Part shown: positions 20,791 to 45,833 of the stretch, in pieces
How the letters are laid out: the number at the start of each line of letters is the position of its first letter
Numbering within the stretch: position 1 is the stretch's first letter
Assembly (NCBI GenBank): GCA_026706345.1
Contig: JAPOYX010000164.1
Coordinates: 1-52,066 of the forward strand
Direction of reading: 5' to 3'
From: Gemmatimonadota bacterium
Lineage (GTDB): Bacteria; JAAXHH01
DNA length: 52,066 bases
Translations under genes and position numbers: made by a program
The notes under the pieces: model-generated
Database searches by the model: none
Told to the model about the DNA's origin: nothing
The model's input: the letters and a program-made list of their open reading frames with translations, nothing else

Positions 20791-21492
20791 ATGGGAGACA
20801 ACAAGGTAAAGGAACCGCAAGCCGAGGCTTTCGCGACAGTGGAGGAAGGGAACTCCGCTTTTCAATCACTGGTAGATATGCTGGGAACTCGATTCCAGAC
20901 CCTCGATGAGAAGGTAACCGCGTCGGACGCCAGAAACGAAAGCCGGTTCCAGGCCCTCAATGAGAAGGTAACCGCGTCGGATGCCAGAAACGAAAGCCGG
21001 TTCACGGCTATCGATGAGAAGTTGGCGGCGATGGACGAGAAACTGGCGGCGATGGACAAAAGAAACGAAAGCCGATTCACGGCTATCGATGAGAAGTTGG
21101 CGGCGATGGACGAGAAACTGGCGGCGATGGACAAAAGAAACGAAAGCCGATTCACGGCTATCGATGAGAAGTTGGCGGCGATGGACGAGAAACTGGCGGC
21201 GATGGACAAAAGAAACGAAAGCCGATTCACGGCTATCGATGAGAAGTTGGCGGCGATGGACGAGAAACTGGCGGCGATGGACAAAAGAAACGAAAGCCGA
21301 TTCGGGAGCTTAGAGAAGGAGATAGCGGCGTTGGACGCAAAGACCGAAGGTAAATTCGATCTAGTGGAGCAAAAATTCAAATCACAGGACTTCAAGATCG
21401 AGCAATGCGTGACATCGGCGGCCAACAAGTTGATGATCATGATGCTCGTGATTGCCGGGTCGATCATCGCCAGCCTGCTTTATGGCGGCTAG
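20791..21492 (+). CDS. tail-anchored coiled-coil protein with perfect internal repeats
   Basis: The product is 233 residues: a short head, two 18-residue repeats (FQ-T/A-L-D/N-EKVTASDARNESR), four identical 25-residue repeats (FTAIDEKLAAMDEKLAAMDK + RNESR), a variant segment with LEKEIAALDAKTEGKFDLVE, and a C-terminal membrane helix (LMIMMLVIAGSIIASLLYGG). AAGGAGGG lies 6 bases before the ATG. The heptad-like pattern predicts a long rod anchored in the membrane at its C-terminus. It shares its overall plan, not its sequence, with the small membrane proteins at 4173, 4389 and 9921. Function unknown. Confidence 0.7.
   Translation: MGDNKVKEPQAEAFATVEEGNSAFQSLVDMLGTRFQTLDEKVTASDARNESRFQALNEKVTASDARNESRFTAIDEKLAAMDEKLAAMDKRNESRFTAIDEKLAAMDEKLAAMDKRNESRFTAIDEKLAAMDEKLAAMDKRNESRFTAIDEKLAAMDEKLAAMDKRNESRFGSLEKEIAALDAKTEGKFDLVEQKFKSQDFKIEQCVTSAANKLMIMMLVIAGSIIASLLYGG
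20893..21300 (+). repeat. tandem repeat array: 2 x 54 bp then 4 x 75 bp, in-frame
   Basis: Near-identical 54-bp units lie at 20893-20946 and 20947-21000. Four 75-bp units follow at 21001, 21076, 21151 and 21226, identical base for base as read. All lengths are multiples of 3, so gain or loss of units keeps the reading frame. Confidence 0.92.
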
Positions 21493-34762: not shown

Positions 34763-34795
34763 GAGCAACTTGAGTCCAGGCAGCCGATTACCGCG

Positions 34796-34867
34796 GACCG
34801 AGCAGACCGAACGGGCCGAACGGACCGAATGGACCGAATGGGTCGAATGGGTCGAACGGGCCGGATG
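34796..34867. repeat. 9-bp tandem repeat array (8 units)
   Basis: Units read GACCGAGCA, GACCGAACG, GGCCGAACG, GACCGAATG (x2), GGTCGAATG, GGTCGAACG and GGCCGGATG. The array fills the gap between the DUF2237 start and the DUF5916 stop. Its consensus is close to that of the 9-bp array at 40521-40601. Confidence 0.75.
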
Positions 34868-34909
34868 GGCCGGTCCGGCGGCCGTCGGACGGAGTGAACG
34901 GGAATCAGT

Positions 34910-37195
34910 CTACAAGTCGAACAGGTAGGCCAGCTTGACTACCAGCGTCCGGTCCAGCGGGTCGCCGAGCAGGGTTTCCCCTACGTCCTCGTTGTCGCGC
35001 CGTTCGTTGTACACGACAAAGAGATTGCTGCCCGGGCTGATGATGTAGTTGAACCGGAAATTCGACACGAACCGGTCCTGCTGGGTGTCCCACTGCACCA
35101 GCGTACTGAGCGACAGGTCGGGCGAGAATGAGTAGCTGGAACGGACGCCGAAGATGTGGGCCGTGACCTCCCGTTTCCTGTCCCCGACGTCGGTGAGCGT
35201 CACGTCGTTGAGCTCGTACCTGGGTCCGAAGGTAAACTTCGACCCGGCGCGCAGTCCGCCCTCGAGATTCAGCGAACGCCGGTCGCCGTTGATGTACTGG
35301 CCCAGGATGAGCTGGAAATCGGCGAACAGGGGCTTGCTCAGGTTCGTCGTGTAATGCATGCGCGAAGACGCGTCCGTGTAATTCCCCGCGGGGAGCTTGA
35401 CGCCCAGAATAGGGCGCGTGTCTTCGCTGATCCGCCGGAAGGCGCGGTCCAGCGTGATTCCCGCCTGTTCGCCGCCAGTGAAGAACAGCTCCCAGTGATA
35501 GTGTTCCCGACGGGTCAGCTGCGTACCGTCGTCCCCGAAAGTGGCGCCTATCACGATATGGGGGAAGTACCGGCGGACGATGCTGTTTGTGGGTTCGGGC
35601 GTGAAGAACGCACGGGCCGAGACCTCGTGGAATCCCCCGAAATTCCGGGCCAGGCTCCGGCGGCTGAAGAAGCCCATGCCGGGACTGAAGAATTCGGATA
35701 CGCCCATGTACAGGCCCTCGAACTGCCACAGGGGTCCGTTCCAGCGCGACCACAGCCTTCCCGCGAAGCCCGATTCGCTGTCCTCACCCGCCTGGTAGGT
35801 GGTGCCGGCCAGGAATCCGCTGACGGCCAGCTTGGGACCGATGGCCAGGTTGAAGTCGCCGCCGGCCGCCCGGTTGTAGTCGCCGCCGCCGATCCGCTGG
35901 TTGGTGACGATGAATCCCACGTTGGATTTCTCGCCCACGTCCTGGCTGATCCGCGCCACGGCGTAGATGTTGTCCTCGATCTTGGATTCACCGAATCGCT
36001 CGTCGCCGGTCCGCATGAGCAGAAGCCCCAGGTTCGTGCGGCCGGCCTTGCCCGTCAGGCGGCCGCCACCGGTGATGGGCACCTGCCTTAGCGCGCCGGT
36101 ACCATCGCGCGCCAGGCCGATGTTGCGGCTGTAGAAGAGTTCCGTCTCCCGGGCCACTCCGAAGCGGAAAAGCCCGCCGTTCTCAAGGAAGAAGGCGCGT
36201 TTCTCGGGGAAGAACAGGTTGAACTGCGTAAGGTTGACCTGCGCGTCGTCCACCTCCACCTGGGAGAAGTCCGTGTTGTAGGTCAGGTCTAGGGACAGGT
36301 TGTTGGTCAGGCCGTACTTGACGTCCACACCGCCGTCGAAGTCGTCGTCCCGCTTGGTCGTGCCCGGGTCGTAGGTCCACGTAGCCCCGCCCAGGGAGTA
36401 AGGCGTAACCTGCAAGTAGCGGTGGTCGTGCCGCGTGAGGTTCATGCCCGACAGGGTCCCGGCCACGGACACCTGGGAGATGTTGAAGGGACGGATGACC
36501 GGCGCCCAGAAGGACTGTTCGTTGCGGCGGCGGATCTGGCGCTCCAGGTTGATCCCGAAATCGACGTCTTCCCCGGTTTCGAAGCGCAACGTGCTCCAGG
36601 GAATGGCCATCTCGGCGTACCATCCCTCTTCGTTCCTGGAAGTATACACGTCCCACACGCCGTTCCAGTCCGTCAGGATGTTGGTGTTGAAGCGGCCCTC
36701 GGACCGGCCCTCGTTGCGCACCTGGGCGTCATAACGGGCACCGTCGGGATTGGTGGCGAAGAGGATCCCGTTCTGCCGGTCCATGAACGTATCCAGGATG
36801 ATCTGGAAGTAGTCGTCGTCGGCCAGGTCGCCGTCCCGGGCCATCTGGGTGGCGATGATCTGGGAAGGGTCCGAGTCGTAGGCCCAGACGCCGATGTACA
36901 GCGTCTGCTCGTCGTATAGGACCCGCACCTCGGTCCGCTCGGACGCCGGCTGGCCCTCGTCCGGCCGTTGCTGGGTGAAACCGCTGGCAGCCAAGGCGTT
37001 CTGCCATATGCCCTCGTCCAGGACGCCATCCATGTGCAGCGCTTCCAGGATGCGAAGAGGAACGATCTCCCGCTCCTGTGCGGACGCGGAGCCGGTGGTC
37101 TGCGTAGCCAGCAGCCCGACCATGCAGCATACGATCGCCGCACGTCTAAAACAGAAGGTGGTCAGGGCGCGCGGGAACACGCGAGAACTGTACAT
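34910..37195 (-). CDS. DUF5916 outer-membrane protein with CBM9-like N-terminal domain
   Basis: The product is 761 residues. After a signal peptide (cut near SASAQ) comes a carbohydrate-binding-family-9-like domain (ILEALHMDGVLDEGIWQNAL to about residue 230, with YDEQTLYIGVWAYDSDPSQI). The DUF5916 barrel follows (SLDLTYNTDFSQVEVDDAQV, LTQFNLFFPEKRAFFLENGG, FYSRNIGLARDG). GGAGGAAT precedes the ATG at 37193-37195. It starts 4 bases after the TonB-dependent receptor stop, so it ends the operon of the first metal-uptake-like module. The second module lacks it. The family is often found beside TonB receptors; its function is not known. Confidence 0.9.
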   Translation of the reverse strand: MYSSRVFPRALTTFCFRRAAIVCCMVGLLATQTTGSASAQEREIVPLRILEALHMDGVLDEGIWQNALAASGFTQQRPDEGQPASERTEVRVLYDEQTLYIGVWAYDSDPSQIIATQMARDGDLADDDYFQIILDTFMDRQNGILFATNPDGARYDAQVRNEGRSEGRFNTNILTDWNGVWDVYTSRNEEGWYAEMAIPWSTLRFETGEDVDFGINLERQIRRRNEQSFWAPVIRPFNISQVSVAGTLSGMNLTRHDHRYLQVTPYSLGGATWTYDPGTTKRDDDFDGGVDVKYGLTNNLSLDLTYNTDFSQVEVDDAQVNLTQFNLFFPEKRAFFLENGGLFRFGVARETELFYSRNIGLARDGTGALRQVPITGGGRLTGKAGRTNLGLLLMRTGDERFGESKIEDNIYAVARISQDVGEKSNVGFIVTNQRIGGGDYNRAAGGDFNLAIGPKLAVSGFLAGTTYQAGEDSESGFAGRLWSRWNGPLWQFEGLYMGVSEFFSPGMGFFSRRSLARNFGGFHEVSARAFFTPEPTNSIVRRYFPHIVIGATFGDDGTQLTRREHYHWELFFTGGEQAGITLDRAFRRISEDTRPILGVKLPAGNYTDASSRMHYTTNLSKPLFADFQLILGQYINGDRRSLNLEGGLRAGSKFTFGPRYELNDVTLTDVGDRKREVTAHIFGVRSSYSFSPDLSLSTLVQWDTQQDRFVSNFRFNYIISPGSNLFVVYNERRDNEDVGETLLGDPLDRTLVVKLAYLFDL

Positions 37196-37199
37196 CTTT

Positions 37200-39551
37200 C
37201 TATTCCTCCATGGGCTGCCCGAATGGAACGGACAGGCTGAACGTAACATTCCGACCCGGATTATCGGTAAAATAGCGGAACCGGCTCAGGTAGTCCCGGT
37301 ATCGCTTGTTGAACAGATTGTGTACACCGAATTGCATGCGTACGAGCTGGTCGGCCACGGCTAACTCCCCATGCAGGTTTACGTCGAAGAGGTTGTAACC
37401 GGCCGGCGGATCCGCATAGTCGATGCCTTCGGGAAAATCCTCCTGCCGCAGGACGAAGCGGCCTTCGAACCCTATCCCGGCTTCCAGCAGGCGCCCGGCG
37501 GCGGGCAGGCGGAAATTCAGACCGGCTATCAACCGGGTGGGTGGCATCTGGTACAGAGGTTCGTTTTCCGCCGTGTTTCGTCCGCGGACGAGGGAGGCGG
37601 ACAGATATGCACCCATGTACCGCGTCGTGTCGTACTCCAAGTATCCGTCGAATCCCTGAATCACCGCGTCGGACTGAACATAGTTGAATTTGGGGAACGC
37701 GCCCCGAATTGTCAACACGAGATCGCCTGCCGGCAGCAGCGAGATGAAGTTTCGGTAGCTCGATCGAAAAAAACCCAGTTCGCCGCGACCCCGATCCCCC
37801 CGGTACCGCAGGGTGAGATCCGTGTTCAGGTTCGATTCCGTATCCAGTTCCTTGTCTCCGATCTCGAACTGCGCCGTACCGTGATGAACGCCATGGCTGT
37901 ACAGCTCGTTCACCCCGGGCGGCCGCCAGGCCCGGCCTACGTTGGCGGCGACGGCCAGGGCCGGGGTCATCTCGTGGATCAAGCCGAGAACCCCCGTCAT
38001 GTTGCGGTAGGTGTAAATACCCCCCTCGACGATCTCGGTAGCGCGCCGGCCTGCGTTCGAGTAGATCTCCGTCCAGCGATAGTCGTATCGCAAACCTGTT
38101 TCTATCGTGGTCTTGCCTTTCGTCCACGATTCCAAGGCAAACACGCCTAAACTGTAGGCCTGGAAGTCGGGAATGAGGAACCCCGTGCTGAACCGCGCGT
38201 TTCGTTGACGCATGCCGCTGACGCCGACCTTTCCGTACCAGTTTCCAAAGTTGCGGTGGTGGAAGATCACTTCGCCGCTGTGCGTCTGCAATCCCAGGTC
38301 GAATCCGGGTCTTGTCGGCGTACGGCCGCCCCGGGCGTGGGCGTCCCACTCCTCCCGCCGGTTGTACTGCTGACCGTACCGCAGCTCGAGATTGCCCAAG
38401 CGCTCGAAACGTACCGTGGATCGTACGGACAGAAGATCGTGGTCCACCCGCTGGCGCGGATTGCCGATTTCGTAGGTGAAAGAACCCGCGATTCCCGGCT
38501 CGCCCCGCTCGATGGCCCGTCTCAGGTCAGTAGTGTTGCCGATGTGGGCGCCTTTGTAAATCCCCAACCAGGTACCGAAATGACTGAAATAGGCCTCCGT
38601 GTCAACCCGGTCCGTCGTAAGGCCCAGCGCCACCGAATAGTTCCGTTCGTCGAATCCGGAATTCCGTATGACGTGCAACGGCGCCCGGGCGTCGCCCGCG
38701 CGGCGCAGACTCCCCTGCACCCGCCACTTGAGTCCTACGGAGCGGCGGAGCGCGCCCTGCACGAGGAGGGAAGCCGCCCCCTGCCTGTTATTGGAAAAGA
38801 GATTCGTGTTGAATCGGCCGCCCATACCTGGATCCACGGGCAGTTCCGGCGGTTCGATGCGGATTACGCCCCCGATGGCGCCGGCGCCGTACTGCACGCT
38901 GGCGGCGCCCTTGAGCACCTCGATGCGGGCAGGGGCAAAGGGGTCGATCTCCGGCGCGTGGTCACCGCCCCACTGCTGCCCCTCCTGGGTAACACCGGCA
39001 TTGAGTATCAGCACCCGTGCGCTGTGGACTCCACGCACCACGGGCTTCGAAATGGCTGGTCCCGTGGTGAGGGAGGTTACGCCCGGCAGGGACTCCAGCG
39101 TTTCGCCCAGCGTCTGTCCCCGGCGTTCTTCCAGGGCGGAAGAGGGCAGGACGAGGATGGACTGGCTGGACCCGGTGAGTTCGCCCGCAAGGTCCCGGTC
39201 GCCGGTGACGGTGACCTCTTCGCCGATAAGGGCCTCCGGCTCCATGGTTACTTCAAGCACGGGGAACCTGTTTTCGGTGACAAGTATCTCGCTTCGGATC
39301 GTCCTGTAGCCGACAAATCGGAATTCGATCGCATGTTTGCCCTGCGGAACGCTTTCCAGGCGGAAAACGCCCCTTTCGTCTGTAAACGCACCGATCTCGA
39401 GTGCGGGCAGGACGACGGTCACCGCCGGCATCGGCTCGCCGGCCTCGTTCAACACCTTGCCGCTCACCGTGGCAGCCCGCGCTTCTGACGGTAGTAAGAG
39501 GCAGGACACGGCTGTCGCCAGGATGGCGCACAGTACTTTCATTGCTTTCAT
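37200..39551 (-). CDS. TonB-dependent receptor, copy 1 (ZnuD-like plug, CarboxypepD_reg N-terminus)
   Basis: The product is 783 residues: signal peptide (cut near EARA), an N-terminal carboxypeptidase-regulatory-like domain (VSGKVLNEAGEPMPAVTVVL), the plug (GQTLGETLESLPGVTSLTTG, VVRGVHSARVLILNAGVTQE, GGDHAPEIDPFAPARIEVLK, GAASVQYGAGAIGGVIRI) and a 22-strand barrel ending GRNVTFSLSVPFG. The HAPEIDPF...GAxSVQYG plug form is shared with ZnuD-like receptors. I start at ATG 39549-39551, 7 bases after GGAGAG. It is preceded by the His-rich lipoprotein and closely matches the receptor at 41176. Zinc or another divalent metal is a reasonable guess for the substrate. Confidence 0.92.
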   Translation of the reverse strand: MKAMKVLCAILATAVSCLLLPSEARAATVSGKVLNEAGEPMPAVTVVLPALEIGAFTDERGVFRLESVPQGKHAIEFRFVGYRTIRSEILVTENRFPVLEVTMEPEALIGEEVTVTGDRDLAGELTGSSQSILVLPSSALEERRGQTLGETLESLPGVTSLTTGPAISKPVVRGVHSARVLILNAGVTQEGQQWGGDHAPEIDPFAPARIEVLKGAASVQYGAGAIGGVIRIEPPELPVDPGMGGRFNTNLFSNNRQGAASLLVQGALRRSVGLKWRVQGSLRRAGDARAPLHVIRNSGFDERNYSVALGLTTDRVDTEAYFSHFGTWLGIYKGAHIGNTTDLRRAIERGEPGIAGSFTYEIGNPRQRVDHDLLSVRSTVRFERLGNLELRYGQQYNRREEWDAHARGGRTPTRPGFDLGLQTHSGEVIFHHRNFGNWYGKVGVSGMRQRNARFSTGFLIPDFQAYSLGVFALESWTKGKTTIETGLRYDYRWTEIYSNAGRRATEIVEGGIYTYRNMTGVLGLIHEMTPALAVAANVGRAWRPPGVNELYSHGVHHGTAQFEIGDKELDTESNLNTDLTLRYRGDRGRGELGFFRSSYRNFISLLPAGDLVLTIRGAFPKFNYVQSDAVIQGFDGYLEYDTTRYMGAYLSASLVRGRNTAENEPLYQMPPTRLIAGLNFRLPAAGRLLEAGIGFEGRFVLRQEDFPEGIDYADPPAGYNLFDVNLHGELAVADQLVRMQFGVHNLFNKRYRDYLSRFRYFTDNPGRNVTFSLSVPFGQPMEE

Positions 39552-39633
39552 TTGGAAACTCTCCAAGCCCGCGATTACAGGGAATAGGCCGCGGCCGTGT
39601 CCGGTCTACGAATAGGCCGCGGCCGTGTCCATA

Positions 39634-40281
39634 CTACGTCCGCACTTCGACTTCGAAGGTCACTTCGATGTCCGTCTCGTCGCTCGGGGTCACGCCGTCC
39701 TTGGGTGCGTCATCGTAGTGACTCTGAACGATCCGGAACTGACCGTTCCGCGCGTTAGCCGGAACAGTAAGCGTGAATCTGACTCCGACGGGATGATCTA
39801 CGCCCGAATTCGTCACGTAATCGGATTCCTTGTCCGCATAGGCAACGGTGGCTGGTGCAAACCCCCCAAGGGTATGAAAGAACAACTGGTGGGCCTCGGC
39901 TTCCTCCTTCACCTCCTCGGTGATGTCCTCCGGCGGGCTTTCCGTCTCGTTCAACTCCTGTATCACGCCGTCGTAAACCGTACCCGCGTTTACGACGATC
40001 TTGCCCACGACCGGCGCGTTTCCGCCTTCGCCGTCCAGATCCTGGAACTGCGCGGTGACCGGCGCTCCCCCGCCCTGGGGCGTAAGCGTGATTCTGAGCG
40101 TCGTGATGAGCTCTACTTCACCGGGACCATGGTCATGATCATGATCGTCCTCTTCATGTTCTTCCGGATCGTCGGGACCCATCGGATTAGAGTCATTATC
40201 GTCGGCGCAGGAAAACGTCAGCGCGGCGGTGAACACCGCGGCGGCCATGACGGACAGTATGTTCCAGCGATACTTCAACAT
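39634..40281 (-). CDS. His/acid-rich lipoprotein, copy 1 (putative metal-binding partner of the receptor)
   Basis: The product is 215 residues: signal with a Cys at the cut (AALTFSCADDND), an acidic and His-rich linker (PEEHEEDDHDHDHGPGE), then a beta-rich domain (LITTLRITLTPQGGGAPVTA, QFQDLDGEGGNAPVVGKIVV, NAGTVYDGVIQELNETESPP). Proteins of this plan, sometimes labelled 'type 1 periplasmic-binding-fold', occur next to TonB receptors in Bacteroidetes, to my recollection. The HDHDH tract could bind Zn or Cu. GGAAGAGAAG precedes the ATG. A second copy lies at 43581. Confidence 0.8.
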   Translation of the reverse strand: MLKYRWNILSVMAAAVFTAALTFSCADDNDSNPMGPDDPEEHEEDDHDHDHGPGEVELITTLRITLTPQGGGAPVTAQFQDLDGEGGNAPVVGKIVVNAGTVYDGVIQELNETESPPEDITEEVKEEAEAHQLFFHTLGGFAPATVAYADKESDYVTNSGVDHPVGVRFTLTVPANARNGQFRIVQSHYDDAPKDGVTPSDETDIEVTFEVEVRT

Positions 40282-40694
40282 TTTGGCTTCTCTTCCTTGG
40301 CTGTGCTGCGTGAAGTAAAGTGATCTGATTTTTAAATAAGAGGGATCAGGTACAGCGATCCGCGGATCGGTTCCGGTCCGGACAACCCTGACAGGTAACC
40401 GCGGGTCCTGTTACTGATTTCGGTGCTGACTGACGCAGGCGAACTCCGAGCCGTTGACTGGGACCAGCCCCGACCATCTGTGTGGATTCGTCCGGGCCGT
40501 ATCGATACGGCCGGCGATTCGAACGGTCTGAACGGTCTGACCGATCTGAATGGTCAGATCGGTCAGAACAGTCTCAACAGTCAGATCGGTCAGAACAGTC
40601 TGGACATATAATCAGGGATGTCCGGAAGGGGACACGGCCGCTCCTGAAGGACTCAGGCAATCGGCCGGAGACCCGGAGCATGCAGGCTGTCGGG
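40282..40694. other. non-coding gap between the two first genes of module 1
   Basis: The gap of 413 bases has no supported gene. It holds a palindrome GTATCGATAC (40499-40508) conserved in module 2, and the 9-bp array at 40521-40601. Much of the rest aligns by eye with 44217-44548. Confidence 0.5.
40521..40601. repeat. 9-bp tandem repeat array (9 units)
   Basis: Units: GAACGGTCT (x2), GACCGATCT, GAATGGTCA, GATCGGTCA, GAACAGTCT, CAACAGTCA, GATCGGTCA, GAACAGTCT. It is absent from the otherwise similar gap in module 2, so it arose after the duplication or was lost there. Confidence 0.75.
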
Positions 40695-40964
40695 TCAGGG
40701 AAGAGGCGGCGCACGGTTTCGGTGCTGCTCGACCTGAATTCGAGGGTAACCGGGTTGCGATGCAGCGGCCACGGGGCCGACAAAATCGTAGTCCGGGAGG
40801 GTAGGAGATGACTTCTCAAGCACCGCGGAGGACGCGGTGGCGAAAAGGCAGATCTGGCAGTGGTCCACATGTCCGGCGTCGGTCTCCAACTCATCGCAGT
40901 CGTGCGGGGGACTGGTGAAAAACACGGCAAATGCGATGACGCAGGAAAGCGTGAGGAGTTTCAT
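40695..40964 (-). CDS. short exported Cys/His protein, copy 1
   Basis: The product is 89 residues: a signal-like helix (MKLLTLSCVIAFAVFFTS), then PPHDCDELETDAGHVDHCQIC, a small hydrophobic segment (LFATASSAVLEK) and a Pro-rich tail ending HRNRAPPLP. The HDC...HVDHCQxC cluster could bind a metal. It recalls HYC_CC_PP/DUF2946-type small proteins found beside metal genes, but I cannot confirm the family. It has a same-length, closely similar copy at 44549. It leads module 1. Confidence 0.65.
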   Translation of the reverse strand: MKLLTLSCVIAFAVFFTSPPHDCDELETDAGHVDHCQICLFATASSAVLEKSSPTLPDYDFVGPVAAASQPGYPRIQVEQHRNRAPPLP

Positions 40965-41175
40965 GGAAGACCCGTCACCATGTGGCTTGATCTGTCAAAG
41001 AAATGGAACAGTCCGACTGAATTCCAGTTACGTGAACATGAACGGTGAGCGCTGGTTCGTCAAGTGGTTCCTTCTCTGCCGCCGAAGGGCACCGCGCTGT
41101 GCATATTACGGTCGCCTCACGCTAGAAACAGGCCGCAGTCCGTGCGCGCGGGCAAGCTTGATACCCGTGCGTCTT

Positions 41176-43524
41176 CTATTCCTCCATGGACATCCCGAAA
41201 GGCAGGGACATGCCGAAAGTAACGTTGCGGCCCGGATTGTCAATGAAGTACCTGAAACGGCTCAGATAATCCCGGTACCGCTGGTTGAACAGGTTGCGAA
41301 TGCCGAATTGCACGCGCACGGGCTGGTCGGCCACGGCGATTTCAGCGTGCAGGTCCAGGTCGAAGAGCTCGTAGCCGGCCGGTGGATCCGCGTAGTCGAT
41401 GCCTTCGGGGAAGTTGTTCTGCCGCATGACGAAGCGGCCTTCGAACCCGATGCCGGCGTCAAGGAGCCGTCCACCGGTGGGCAGGTGGAAACTCAGGCCG
41501 GCGATGAACCTGGTGGACGGCATCTGGTACAGGGGCTGATTCTCCACGGTGTTTCGTCCCCGGACGAACGAGGCGGACAGATGGGTATCAATGTGCGGCG
41601 TCAGTTCGTACTCCAGGTACCCGTCGAAGCCCTGGATCACCGCGTCGGACTGGACATAGATGAATTTGGGGAACGCCCCGCGTATCGTCAAGACCAGATC
41701 GTCCGCCGGCAGCAGCGAAATGTAGTTGCTGTAATGGGAACGGAAGAGCCCCAGTTCGCCGCGGCCCCTGTCTCCCTGGTAGCGCAGGGTGAGATCCGTG
41801 TTCAGACTCGACTCCGTTTGCAGTTCTTTGTCCCCGATTTCGAACTGCGCCGTGCCGTGGTGGACGCCGTGGCTGTACAACTCGTTCACCCCCGGCGGCC
41901 GCCAGGCCCGGCCGACATTGGCTGCGACGGCCGTATTCGGGGTCAATTCGTAGATGAGGCCAAGCACACCGGTCATGTTACGGTAGGTGAATATGCCCCC
42001 CTCGACGATCTCGGTGGCGCGGCGGCCCGTGTTCGAGTAGATCTCCATCCACCGGTAGTCGTAACGCAGGCCCGTCTCCACCGTCGTCTTTCCCTTCGTC
42101 CAGGATTCCAGGGCGAACACGCCGGCACTGTAGGCCAGGAAATCGGGAATGAGAAATCCGGTACTGAAGCGCTTGTTCTCCTGGCGCATGCCACTGATAC
42201 CGAATTTCCCGTACCAGTTGCCGAGGTTGCCGTGCTGGAAGATCGCGTCGCCGCTGTGGGTCTGCAGTCCCTGGGAGAACCCGGGCCTCGCCACCCCGCC
42301 GCTTCTGGCGTGTGAGTCCCACTCCTCCCGCCGGTTGTACTGCTGTCCGTACCTGAGTTCGAGATTGCCCTTCCCCTCGAATCGTACAAGAGATCGAACG
42401 GACAGGAGATCGTGGTCCACCCGCTGGCGCGGATTGTCGATTTCGTAGGTGAAAGAGCCTACGATGGTCGGTTCGCCCCGCTCGATGGTCCTTCTCAGGT
42501 CCGTTGTGTTGCCGATGTGGGCTCCTTTGAAGATCCCGATCCAGGTGCCGAAATGGCTGAAATAGGCCTCCGTGTCCACGCGGTCCGTCGTATAGCCCAG
42601 TGCCACCGAGTAGTCCCGCTCGTCGAACCCGGAATTCCGTATGACGTGGACCGGCGCTTGGGCGTCACCGGCCCGCCGCAGGCTGCTCTGCACCCGCCAC
42701 TTGAGTCCCCCCGGTCGCCGCAGGGCACCCTGCAGGAGGAGGGAACCCGCGCCCTGTCTGTTGTTTGAGAACAGGTTGGTATTGATCCGGCCGCCCAGGC
42801 CCGGTCTCGTGGGCAGTTCCGGCGGTTCGATGCGGATTACGCCCCCGATGGCGCCGGCGCCGTACTGCACGCTGGCGGCGCCCTTGAGCACCTCGATACG
42901 GGCCGGGGAAAAGGGATCGATCTCAGGGGCGTGGTCTCCGCCCCACTGCTGGCCCTCCTGTGTAATGCCGGCATTGAGTACCAGGACCCGGGCGCTGTGG
43001 ACGCCTCGCAGCACCGGCTTCGAAACGGCGGGACCCGTGGTCAGGGTGGATACGCCCGGCAGGGATTCCAGCGTCTCGCCCACCGTCTGGCCCCGGCGTT
43101 CTTCCAGGTCGGACAGGGGCAGAACAAGGACGGACTGACTGGACCCGGTGAGTTCGCCCGCCAGGTCCCGGTCACCCGTGACGGTTACCTCGTCACCGAT
43201 CAGGGTCTCCGGTTCCATGGCTACTTCGAGCACGGTCGGTCTGTTTTCGGTGACGACTATCTCGCTTCGGACCGTTCGGTAGCCGACGAAGCGGAATTCG
43301 AACGTGTGTGCGCCTGCCGGCACGTTCTCCAGGCGAAATTCGCCTTTTTCGTCCGTGAACGCTCCGATCTCGAGCGCCGGCATCATGACGGTCACCGCCG
43401 GTAAGGGTTCGCCTGATTCGTTCAGCACCTTGCCGCGCACCGCGACGGTCTGCGCTTCGACTTGAAGAACGAGACCGGACAAGGCTATCGCCAGGACGGC
43501 GCACAGGATTTTCGTTGCGTTCAT
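41176..43524 (-). CDS. TonB-dependent receptor, copy 2
   Basis: The product is 782 residues and matches the receptor at 37200 almost end to end: signal (cut near EAQ), CarboxypepD_reg-like domain (VRGKVLNESGEPLPAVTVMM), plug (GQTVGETLESLPGVSTLTTG, VLRGVHSARVLVLNAGITQE, GGDHAPEIDPFSPARIEVLK) and barrel ending GRNVTFGMSLPFG. Differences are spread along the barrel. No strong RBS is seen before ATG 43522-43524. It follows the second lipoprotein by 56 bases. Divergence between the copies, mostly in loops, may mean different metals or conditions. Confidence 0.92.
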   Translation of the reverse strand: MNATKILCAVLAIALSGLVLQVEAQTVAVRGKVLNESGEPLPAVTVMMPALEIGAFTDEKGEFRLENVPAGAHTFEFRFVGYRTVRSEIVVTENRPTVLEVAMEPETLIGDEVTVTGDRDLAGELTGSSQSVLVLPLSDLEERRGQTVGETLESLPGVSTLTTGPAVSKPVLRGVHSARVLVLNAGITQEGQQWGGDHAPEIDPFSPARIEVLKGAASVQYGAGAIGGVIRIEPPELPTRPGLGGRINTNLFSNNRQGAGSLLLQGALRRPGGLKWRVQSSLRRAGDAQAPVHVIRNSGFDERDYSVALGYTTDRVDTEAYFSHFGTWIGIFKGAHIGNTTDLRRTIERGEPTIVGSFTYEIDNPRQRVDHDLLSVRSLVRFEGKGNLELRYGQQYNRREEWDSHARSGGVARPGFSQGLQTHSGDAIFQHGNLGNWYGKFGISGMRQENKRFSTGFLIPDFLAYSAGVFALESWTKGKTTVETGLRYDYRWMEIYSNTGRRATEIVEGGIFTYRNMTGVLGLIYELTPNTAVAANVGRAWRPPGVNELYSHGVHHGTAQFEIGDKELQTESSLNTDLTLRYQGDRGRGELGLFRSHYSNYISLLPADDLVLTIRGAFPKFIYVQSDAVIQGFDGYLEYELTPHIDTHLSASFVRGRNTVENQPLYQMPSTRFIAGLSFHLPTGGRLLDAGIGFEGRFVMRQNNFPEGIDYADPPAGYELFDLDLHAEIAVADQPVRVQFGIRNLFNQRYRDYLSRFRYFIDNPGRNVTFGMSLPFGMSMEE

Positions 43525-43580
43525 AGGTAATCCCAGGACGCGCGTTTCCTAAGAATAGGTCACGACCGTGTTAGTACCTG

Positions 43581-44216
43581 CTAGCGCACCTCCACTTGGA
43601 AGGTCACATCGATATCCGTCTCGTCGCTCTGGGTCACCCCGTCCTTGGGCCCTTCATCATAGTGACTCAGAATGACCCGAAGCTGGCCGTCCTGCGCGTT
43701 AGCGGGGACAGAAAGCATGAATGCGACTCCGACGGGATGATCGGCGCCCGAGTTCGTCGTATAATCGGATTCCTTGTCCGCATAGGTAACGGTGGCCGGC
43801 GAAAAACCCCCGAGGGTTCGATAGAAGAACTGGTGGGCCTCGGCTTCCTCCTCCACCTCCTCGGTGATGTTCTCCGCCGGGCTTTCCAACTCGTTCAACA
43901 CCTGTACCGCGCCGTCGTAATCCGTACCCGCGTTTACGACCAGCGTGCCCACAACCGGAGCATTACCGCCTTCGCCGTCCAGGTCCTGGAACTGCACAGT
44001 AACCGGCGCTCCTCCGCCACTGGGCGTAAGCGTGATCCTGAGCGTCGTGATGAGTTCTTCTTCACCCGGTCCATGGTCGTCCTCTTCATGTTCTTCCGGT
44101 TCGGTAGGACCGGTCGGACTGGATTCTTCGTCGTCGGCGCAGGCGAACGTGAGCGCGGCGGTGACGAATACCGCGACGGTAAGGACGGACAGTACGTTCC
44201 AGCGATGCTTGAACAT
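43581..44216 (-). CDS. His/acid-rich lipoprotein, copy 2
   Basis: The product is 211 residues from ATG 44214-44216, which follows GAGGAG by about 9 bases: signal and Cys (TAALTFACADDEE), linker PEEHEEDDHGPGEEEL, then the same beta-rich domain (LITTLRITLTPSGGGAPVTV, QFQDLDGEGGNAPVVGTLVV). The HDHD run of copy 1 is missing, so it has fewer potential metal ligands. The frame is open further upstream but that part aligns with non-coding sequence of module 1. Confidence 0.8.
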   Translation of the reverse strand: MFKHRWNVLSVLTVAVFVTAALTFACADDEESSPTGPTEPEEHEEDDHGPGEEELITTLRITLTPSGGGAPVTVQFQDLDGEGGNAPVVGTLVVNAGTDYDGAVQVLNELESPAENITEEVEEEAEAHQFFYRTLGGFSPATVTYADKESDYTTNSGADHPVGVAFMLSVPANAQDGQLRVILSHYDEGPKDGVTQSDETDIDVTFQVEVR

Positions 44217-44548
44217 GTCGGGCTTCTCCTCTTTGCTGTGCTGCGTGAAGTAAAATGAACTGCTTTTACATAAACGGCACCAGGTACCGCGATCCGGCGC
44301 CGGTCCGGATAACCCTGACAGAAAACTACAGGTTCTGTTGCCGATTTCGGTGCCGACCGATGCGGGTGAACCCCGAGCCGGCGATTGGAACCGGCCCTCG
44401 ACCCCTGCGTGCAATCATCCGGGCGGTATCGATACGGCCGGCGATTCGAGCGGTCTGGACTTACCAATCTGGACGTCTGGAAGGGTCACGGGCCGCGCCG
44501 ATAGGATTCGGGCGATCGGCCGGAGGCCTGAGCCTGCAGGCTGTCGGG
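44217..44548. other. non-coding gap between the two first genes of module 2
   Basis: The gap of 332 bases is similar to 40282-40694 but lacks the 9-bp array. GTATCGATAC is at 44426-44435, followed in both copies by GGCCGGCGATTCGA-A/G-CGGTCTG. No gene is supported. Confidence 0.5.
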
Positions 44549-44818
44549 TCAGGGAAGGGGCGGCGCGCGGTTTCGGTGTTGCGCGTCCTGAAGCCGGGGG
44601 TATCCGGGTTCCGGTTCGCCGGCCACGGGGCAGACAAACTCGTAGTCCGGGAGGGTAGAAGAGGACTTTTCAAGTACCGCGAAGGACGCGGCGGCAATAA
44701 GGCAGCCCTGGCAGTGGTCCACATGAGCGGCGCTGGTCTCCAGCGCGGCGCAGTCATGCGGGTCACTGGCGAAAAGCAAGGCGAAAACAAGGACGGATGT
44801 GAAGGTAAGCAGTCTCAT
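44549..44818 (-). CDS. short exported Cys/His protein, copy 2
   Basis: The product is 89 residues, the same as copy 1 when started at ATG 44816-44818: MRLLTFTSVLVFALLFAS, DPHDCAALETSAAHVDHCQG, CLIAAASFAVLEKSSSTLPD, ending HRNRAPPLP. The HDC...HVDHCxxC cluster is conserved between copies, which supports a function for it. It leads module 2. The gap of 247 bases upstream to the ABC operon is divergent and should carry its promoter. Confidence 0.65.
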   Translation of the reverse strand: MRLLTFTSVLVFALLFASDPHDCAALETSAAHVDHCQGCLIAAASFAVLEKSSSTLPDYEFVCPVAGEPEPGYPRLQDAQHRNRAPPLP

Positions 44819-45065
44819 GCCGGACTCGTCACGTGGTGGCTGGACCAATCCTGAAGATCGCGAACGAATTCGAAGCTTCAACAGTAGTTTTCAGTTGCTT
44901 AAATCTGTGCAATTTCAGCCGATTTGTCAAGTGATTTCGCGGCTTCGCCGAATACGGTCTTGACACGGACCCGACCCCTTGTTATTATTCCGCGCCGCGA
45001 AATAAAGCAACGCCAAAAACACGCGGACATCTGCAATTTTGGCTTGAAAAGGAGCGAGAACAGGG

Positions 45066-45833
45066 GTGTCCGAAAAACCCATGATCGAGACGAATGGGCT
45101 TTGTAAGTACTACGGTTCGTTCGTCGCCGTGCAAGACATCACCTTTACCATTCCCGAAGGCCAGATCGTGGCGTTCCTGGGGCCCAACGGCGCCGGCAAG
45201 TCCACCACGATGAAGATGCTGAGCGGCTATCTCGGCGCGAGCGCGGGCAGCGCGGCAGTCGCCGGGCTCGACGTGAGGCGCGAACGCCTGGCCATGTCGA
45301 GACACCTGGGATACCTGCCCGAAAACGGCCCGCTGTACCAGAACATGACGCCGCTCGAACTCCTCCGGTTCTTCGGCGAGGCCCGCGGACTCGATCCGCT
45401 CCGGCTGGCCAGCCGCCTGGACTACGTCACCGACCGGTGCAACCTGCACGAGGCCCTCGAAAAACCCATCGACAAGCTGTCCCGTGGCAACAAGCAGCGG
45501 GTAGGCCTCGCACAGGCCCTGCTCCACGACCCCGACGTGCTCATCATGGACGAGCCGACCGCCGGGCTCGATCCCAACCAGATCCGGGATTTCCGACAGG
45601 ACATCCGGCTGCTTGGCCAGACCAAGACGATCCTCCTTTCCACCCACATCCTCCAGGAAGTGGACGTCATCGCCGACCGCGTGCTCCTGATCAACGAGGG
45701 CAGGCTGGTCTACGACGGCACACCCGCCGGCCTGGGCCGCGACGGATCGCTCGAAGCCGCCTTCTACGCCCTGACCGCAGACGGCGGGGAGGCGGAGGAT
45801 GAGACGACGAAGGGCGGGGAGGCGAGCGAATGA
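45066..45833 (+). CDS. ABC transporter ATP-binding protein (GldA/NatA-like)
   Basis: The product is 255 residues from GTG 45066, about 11 bases after AAGGAG. Walker A FLGPNGAGKST (about 38-47), signature LSRGNKQRVG (138-147), Walker B DVLIMDEPTAGLDP (157-170) and the H-loop His at 193 are all present. The C-terminus is an acidic tail. Its stop overlaps the next start by 4 bases. It pairs with the GldF-GldG-like fusion downstream, as in gliding-motility-type ABC systems, which are also common in non-gliding bacteria. Confidence 0.93.
   Translation: MSEKPMIETNGLCKYYGSFVAVQDITFTIPEGQIVAFLGPNGAGKSTTMKMLSGYLGASAGSAAVAGLDVRRERLAMSRHLGYLPENGPLYQNMTPLELLRFFGEARGLDPLRLASRLDYVTDRCNLHEALEKPIDKLSRGNKQRVGLAQALLHDPDVLIMDEPTAGLDPNQIRDFRQDIRLLGQTKTILLSTHILQEVDVIADRVLLINEGRLVYDGTPAGLGRDGSLEAAFYALTADGGEAEDETTKGGEASE

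Follow-up and report, generated by a model that had tools for sequence, protein, structure and literature searches.

What is the role of a small exported protein, a lipoprotein, and a TonB-dependent receptor that are encoded side by side, twice, in contig JAPOYX010000164.1 of a Latescibacterota genome? The contig (52,066 nt; its full length is referred to as the window) carries two head-to-tail modules of these three genes on the minus strand, at 44818–41176 (module a) and 40964–37200 (module b). An earlier reading made from the letters alone (the sequence-only reading) had proposed a duplicated metal-uptake unit in which the small protein hands metal to the receptor or senses it. Our analysis retains the uptake unit and changes the role of the small protein: we put at roughly 0.75 the probability that each module is an uptake operon that responds to metal and opens with a regulatory upstream open reading frame (uORF) of the CruR/RAPP type.

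The tandem three-gene duplication was confirmed, with 80–85% DNA identity in all three genes. The identities between copies a and b at the DNA and protein levels were 80.0 and 69% for the small open reading frame (ORF), 85.2 and 78% for the lipoprotein, and 82.0 and 82% for the receptor, respectively. The 89-residue HDC...HVDHCxxC protein, the EEHEEDDH linker of the lipoprotein, and the ZnuD-like plug of the receptor were all found as described. The alignment of the long first gaps held over 332 aligned nt (77.7% DNA identity), but gap b is 81 nt longer than gap a, and this extra length coincides with a 9-bp tandem array at 40521–40602. A second array of this kind (GAACGGTCT / CGGACCGAA type) is located at 34794–34872, and both lie in apparently non-coding DNA.

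The C-terminus of the small protein, which the sequence-only reading had missed, changes its interpretation. The 89-residue ORF ends with RNRAPPLP, immediately followed by the stop codon. We compared all 16 modules from 12 genomes of the window genus. R(A/S)PP was located two residues from the C-terminus in every module (RAPP in 14, including both window copies, and RSPP in 2), and CxxC was present in 15 uORFs. The spacing between CxxC (SxxC in the exception) and RxPP was exactly 44 in 16 of the 16 modules; three uORFs have 3 extra residues upstream of CxxC and one has 1 fewer, and this spacing is unchanged. The linker between the ligands and RxPP is variable (57% mean identity). Apart from the RSPP pair, the RAPP codons differ only at the third (synonymous) positions, which indicates that selection acts on the peptide; the ratio of nonsynonymous to synonymous substitution rates of the uORF was approximately 0.40. 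All uORFs begin with an export signal (by inspection only) composed of M(K/R)L(L/F)T and a hydrophobic stretch. Apart from marginal matches, the uORF matches in the searched genus genomes were located at the module locus, one per module. Furthermore, TTGAC(A/G) with a −10-like hexamer was found 98–130 nt upstream of the uORF ATG in all modules, a site that a simple promoter scan did not call. The gap between the uORF and the next gene was 297–542 nt throughout, and the receptor is the second gene after this gap, behind the lipoprotein.

These features resemble those of the CruR (bp2923)-bfrG-bp2921 operon of Bordetella pertussis. CruR is a uORF that senses copper and stalls the ribosome through its own nascent chain (PMC9426467, PMC12992588). 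In vitro, the ribosome has been shown to stop at the prolines of RAPP (PMC12992588), and the CxxC-to-RAPP spacing of 45 tolerates a change of 1–2 residues (PMC9426467). Across proteomes, RAPP and RGPP motifs are depleted, with an enrichment at the C-termini of small exported uORFs that precede TonB receptors (PMC12992588). The window uORFs share with CruR the export signal, CxxC, the C-terminal RAPP, and a similar spacing (44 versus 45), as well as the first position in the operon, the long gap, and the TonB receptor downstream. Since R(A/S)PP and the exact spacing are kept in all 16 modules, the most likely role of the small protein is that of a CruR/RAPP-type regulatory arrest peptide and not of a metal carrier. 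The CxxC-44-RAPP arrangement, the first position behind a promoter-like site of its own, and the long gap are those of a CruR-type uORF and do not support the transfer of metal to the receptor; the half of the sequence-only reading in which the small protein senses metal fits. Two natural variants were observed. Module a of genome G007 (locus L019) has SxxC with RAPP and the spacing kept; it may be a naturally metal-blind copy, with copy b next to it intact. RSPP, reported as a partly permissive arrest motif (PMC12992588), occurs naturally in G003 and G009 (L024 and L025), two sister genomes showing only copy b.

To follow the genes beyond the genus, we used the lipoprotein alignment to scan 84,980 species at one genome each. 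Because only the lipoprotein served as the query, the neighbouring genes provide an independent test. The scan yielded 32 further loci, one in KSB1 and nearly all others in Bacteroidota. A homologous receptor adjoins the lipoprotein gene in 26 of them, and a small exported ORF ending with RAPP, RGPP, or KGPP precedes the first gene of the pair in 19 of these 26; the contigs of two (L042 and L058) are too short to judge. Neither the 104 long control ORFs of these loci nor the 6 lipoprotein-only loci had such a small ORF ending with (R/K)(A/G)PP. The last ligand Cys was 43–47 residues from RxPP in 19/19 loci, with the spacing in L049 and L068 counted by hand past an extra linker cysteine. The small gene, the lipoprotein, and the receptor thus travel together elsewhere, as the sequence-only reading had asked to be checked; the loci include close relatives (e.g., five Winogradskyella), and the counts are therefore not independent events. 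The ligand motif outside the genus is CxxC in KSB1 and some Bacteroidota and HHxHxxC...HxHxxDxDC in Flavobacteriaceae. The nearly fixed distance despite this change of motif (CxxC, or His-rich with DxDC) suggests that the ligand-to-RxPP distance may be the functional core of the uORF. Most loci outside the genus have the order uORF-receptor-lipoprotein; uORF-lipoprotein-receptor is the order in the window genus and in a few loci elsewhere (L040 and L050). Wider sampling via other phyla bearing the type IX secretion system gave nothing useful.

The lipoprotein showed no significant match to a Pfam or NCBIfam family. Among 41 relatives, M1, C26, E54, T57, T58, D78, D80, G81, G83, Y100, E109, E120, E124, H128, G163, H185, and D201 are invariant. 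The Asp/Glu/His linker differs in length between species and is mostly absent or short in Bacteroidota, which indicates that it is not part of the conserved core. The AlphaFold2 model is a β-sandwich with a mean predicted local distance difference test (pLDDT) score of 78 and values above 90 in much of the core; it matched no PDB fold at E≤0.001. H128, H185, and the conserved acidic residues are candidate metal ligands. The invariant Cys26 suggests that the protein is membrane-anchored, with a lipobox that is not canonical, and it may function in metal uptake.

The receptor is composed of a CarboxypepD_reg-like domain, a plug, and a barrel. Its closest solved structure is ZnuD (E = 1e-25 with a single sequence and 2.6e-40 with a profile), followed among the solved metal receptors by OprC. 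These relatives, together with the co-occurrence of the three genes elsewhere, support the proposal of a duplicated metal-uptake unit, and the homology suggests that the modules import metal. The high-affinity zinc ligands of ZnuD are Asp99, His100, Glu340, and His499 (PMC4557270). Asp99, His100, and His499 correspond to D197, H198, and H555 of receptor a, a mapping supported by the single numbering offset of 14 that fits both ligand motifs; Glu340 is outside the alignable region. The majority of receptors in a 15-sequence alignment have Glu at the Asp position of the ligand pair. In regards to OprC, in which Cys143 of the copper site is essential (PMC8610252), this cysteine and the CxxxM/HxM site are absent from both window receptors, and the receptor cysteines (position 8 in copy a; positions 13 and 22 in copy b) are all in the signal-peptide region. 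The receptors scored 121.5 and 110.3 bits against NF038289 (ZnuD), far below its cut-off of 950, and 82 and 73 bits against TIGR01778 (TonB-copper), likewise below its cut-off of 472. The plug was poorly modelled (pLDDT <50).

By analogy with CruR, the modules may function as follows. Under metal shortage, the ribosome translating the 89-residue exported peptide would be arrested by the nascent chain at RAPP, two codons short of the stop. While stalled, it would cover the C-rich stretch that follows, and transcription would continue into the genes for the lipoprotein, the receptor, and perhaps the DUF5916 protein described below. Binding of metal to the Cys/His cluster of the emerging chain would release the arrest and expose the gap, and expression would stop, probably by Rho-dependent attenuation. 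The lipoprotein, at the surface or in the periplasm, would collect the metal, and the ZnuD-like TonB receptor would import it; the duplication would provide two separately switched copies. The excess of C over G was strongest within 45 nt of the uORF end in 15 of the 16 modules, as in CruR, and Rho is encoded in the window genome. No riboswitch in the gap was matched by Rfam at E≤1, and intrinsic terminators in 39500–45120 showed no clear excess over shuffled sequence. A hairpin 3′ of the uORF stop, with a CCTGA/TCAGG to CCCGA/TCGG exchange recognized by eye, was considered as a conserved RNA element and is not claimed, the alifold result being unconvincing.

Several observations weigh against this reading. 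Pfam DUF2946 is the best match of both window uORFs and appears at E≤1 in 7 of 11 uORFs (best E = 1.5e-4), but the best score of 22.9 bits is below the gathering cut-off of 23.7; we therefore call the uORFs CruR-like and not formal members of DUF2946. SxxC replaces CxxC in one uORF (G007a), and RSPP replaces RAPP in two. At five receptor-lipoprotein loci (L041, L044, L059, L060, and L065), the upstream sequence is long enough but holds no uORF. The excess of C over G is modest (mean maximum of 24.8 versus 17.5 in coding controls, whose 95th percentile is 26), which gives weak support for Rho termination. Moreover, the Flavobacteriaceae gap is just ~15–45 nt and ill suited to a Rho mechanism there, and alifold of the gap region gave no convincing conserved RNA structure.

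The strongest alternative keeps the arrest-peptide switch and makes zinc the sensed and imported metal. We place copper, which has the CruR precedent and the CxxC motif in its favour, at about even odds; zinc is a serious contender that we hold a little short of that. In favour of zinc, the receptor has counterparts of three of the four zinc ligands of ZnuD and lacks the copper cysteine of OprC, His residues flank the uORF CxxC, and the module at L041 (Saprospiraceae) is followed by a Fur-family protein with Zur as its best NCBIfam match. However, the metal to which CruR responds is copper, and zinc affects the mRNA only moderately (PMC9426467); the Zur-like neighbour occurs in one locus only; and some Bacteroidota receptors score as high with TIGR01778 as with ZnuD. 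CutF-like proteins are thought not to be all copper-specific (PMC9973294). Two further zinc hints were discarded: the similar-sized neighbours at L058–L060 are DUF2721 proteins and not Zur-type regulators, and the zinc-free L28 paralogue near the module is the sole L28 in the genome. The window genome (4.49 Mb, 97.9% complete) had no detected Fur-family protein or ZnuA-type binding protein, which is unusual for a 4.5-Mb genome. No Fur-family protein was detected in G004, G005, G006, and G008 either; six other genus members have one, which indicates that the module does not simply replace Fur. It is a tentative and rather doubtful idea that the uORF family senses zinc via a Cys/His cluster ~43–47 residues before RxPP and sets the expression of a zinc receptor and a zinc-gathering lipoprotein in Latescibacterota, KSB1, and Bacteroidota, instead of or beside Zur. 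If true, it would be, to our knowledge, the first nascent-chain zinc sensor.

We consider it improbable that the switch works in the opposite sense, with metal strengthening the stall and opening the ribosome-binding site of the next gene, which would make the operon metal-induced for detoxification or cuproenzyme supply. CutF of the CutF-cutO-cutG operon of Rhodobacter capsulatus acts in this way with a similar architecture, namely a small exported peptide with a Cys motif, a C-terminal proline stall motif, and metal genes downstream (PMC9973294). CutF-like proteins are common in Bacteroidota with TonB-like proteins as frequent neighbours (PMC9973294), and the Flavobacteriaceae gaps are short enough. 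However, CutF controls a multicopper oxidase by a copper-enhanced unfolding of a stem-loop over a short gap, whereas the genus gap of 297–542 nt greatly exceeds the short regions in which a stalled ribosome is expected to unfold a stem-loop (PMC9973294). As with CruR, the downstream gene encodes a TonB uptake receptor, whose induction under shortage is reasonable. That the small protein is a stable periplasmic metal carrier or sensor working with its two partners, with an incidental or structural RAPP, is equally improbable: it is exported, has Cys/His ligands, and travels with both genes, but the variable linker contrasts with an RxPP motif that is held constant at a constant distance from the ligands, the proteome-wide bias of RAPP/RGPP points to uORFs, and bp2923 of B. 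pertussis did not complement from another locus and its product was unseen in proteomics (PMC9426467).

The CruR-type uptake operon proposed here differs from its known relatives in several respects. Unlike the CruR operon, it belongs to Latescibacterota, has a lipoprotein between the uORF and a ZnuD-like receptor, is duplicated in tandem, and is known from sequence alone; its uORF has 89 residues versus 145 and an extra His before CxxC. The receptor shares with ZnuD of Neisseria meningitidis the plug Asp-His pair and the HGxH loop (PMC4557270), but has an additional N-terminal CarboxypepD_reg-like domain, lies far under the ZnuD family cut-off, and is placed behind a putative regulatory uORF. 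OprC of Pseudomonas aeruginosa (PMC8610252), the second nearest solved receptor, differs from it in having the CxxxM copper site; receptors of the OprC type are found downstream of CruR homologues. Sponge-associated Latescibacterota are known (PMC12993501), and RAPP/RGPP uORFs ahead of TonB receptors have been broadly described (PMC12992588, PMC9973294). The statement of the sequence-only reading that the triad has no described function is therefore outdated for the uORF-receptor pair by the CruR precedent and stands for the lipoprotein, of which we found no mention in the open-access literature, a body that misses most subscription papers. As far as we can tell, the new elements are CruR-like uORFs in this genus, the conserved lipoprotein, a distance from ligands to arrest site that stays nearly fixed although the ligand motif changes, and a retained tandem pair. 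A putative CruR-type metal-sensing arrest peptide is thereby placed in Latescibacterota and tied to a lipoprotein family without a Pfam or NCBIfam model or a significant PDB fold match, and the system can be used to ask whether metals other than copper also have nascent-chain sensors.

Copies a and b fall into two clades in the receptor tree (bootstrap/approximate likelihood-ratio test values of 89/86 and 92/93). Both clades include single-copy species, which suggests that the duplication is probably older than the sampled genus. Both copies are kept in 4 of the 12 genus genomes, each copy with its own uORF and promoter-like site, and 8 show a single copy (the contig of G005 ends early). The uORF and promoter region of G001 (L023) looks mixed, b-like upstream and in the N-terminus and a-like in the rest, as might result from recombination of the tandem pair into a single copy.

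Positions of the module features and of the following gene in the window
Feature	Position	Strand	Remarks
Promoter-like site, module a (TTGACA-17-CAGATT)	44902–44930	−	83 nt upstream of uORF a start
uORF a, 89-residue exported peptide, CxxC, RAPP two residues before stop	44549–44818	−	RAPP codons 44558–44569; weak DUF2946 match
Gap a, 332 nt, C-rich at start, presumed attenuation region	44217–44548	−	No Rfam match
Lipoprotein a, 211 residues, Cys26, short Glu/His/Asp linker, predicted β-sandwich core	43581–44216	−	
TonB-dependent receptor a, 782 residues, ZnuD-like	41176–43524	−	
Promoter-like site, module b (TTGACG-17-CATGTT)	41035–41063	−	70 nt upstream of uORF b start
uORF b, 89-residue exported peptide, CxxC, RAPP	40695–40964	−	RAPP codons 40704–40715; DUF2946 E = 1.5e-4
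Gap b, 413 nt, carries 9-bp tandem array	40282–40694	−	
Lipoprotein b, 215 residues	39634–40281	−	
TonB-dependent receptor b	37200–39551	−	Start at ATG equivalent to copy a
DUF5916/CBM9-like outer-membrane protein, directly after receptor b	34910–37249	−	Start uncertain; overlaps receptor end as listed

For receptor b, the start at 39551 is better than that at 39566, the TTG of the longer ORF. The DUF5916/CBM9-like gene lies 3′ of the receptor, in the same orientation, in all 11 genus genomes with a contig long enough to include it; six Flavobacteriaceae loci (L045, L046, L048, L049, L054, and L061) likewise have a DUF5916 gene after the triad. The window gene is likely the last gene of the operon, a possible fourth member. 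Elsewhere in the same genome, contig C191 contains a 64-nt stretch that is 80% like a part of module a outside these arrays. The window also carries a tandem repeat at 20986–21303 (75 bp, 4.2 copies, 99% matches) within the ORF at 20791–21492.

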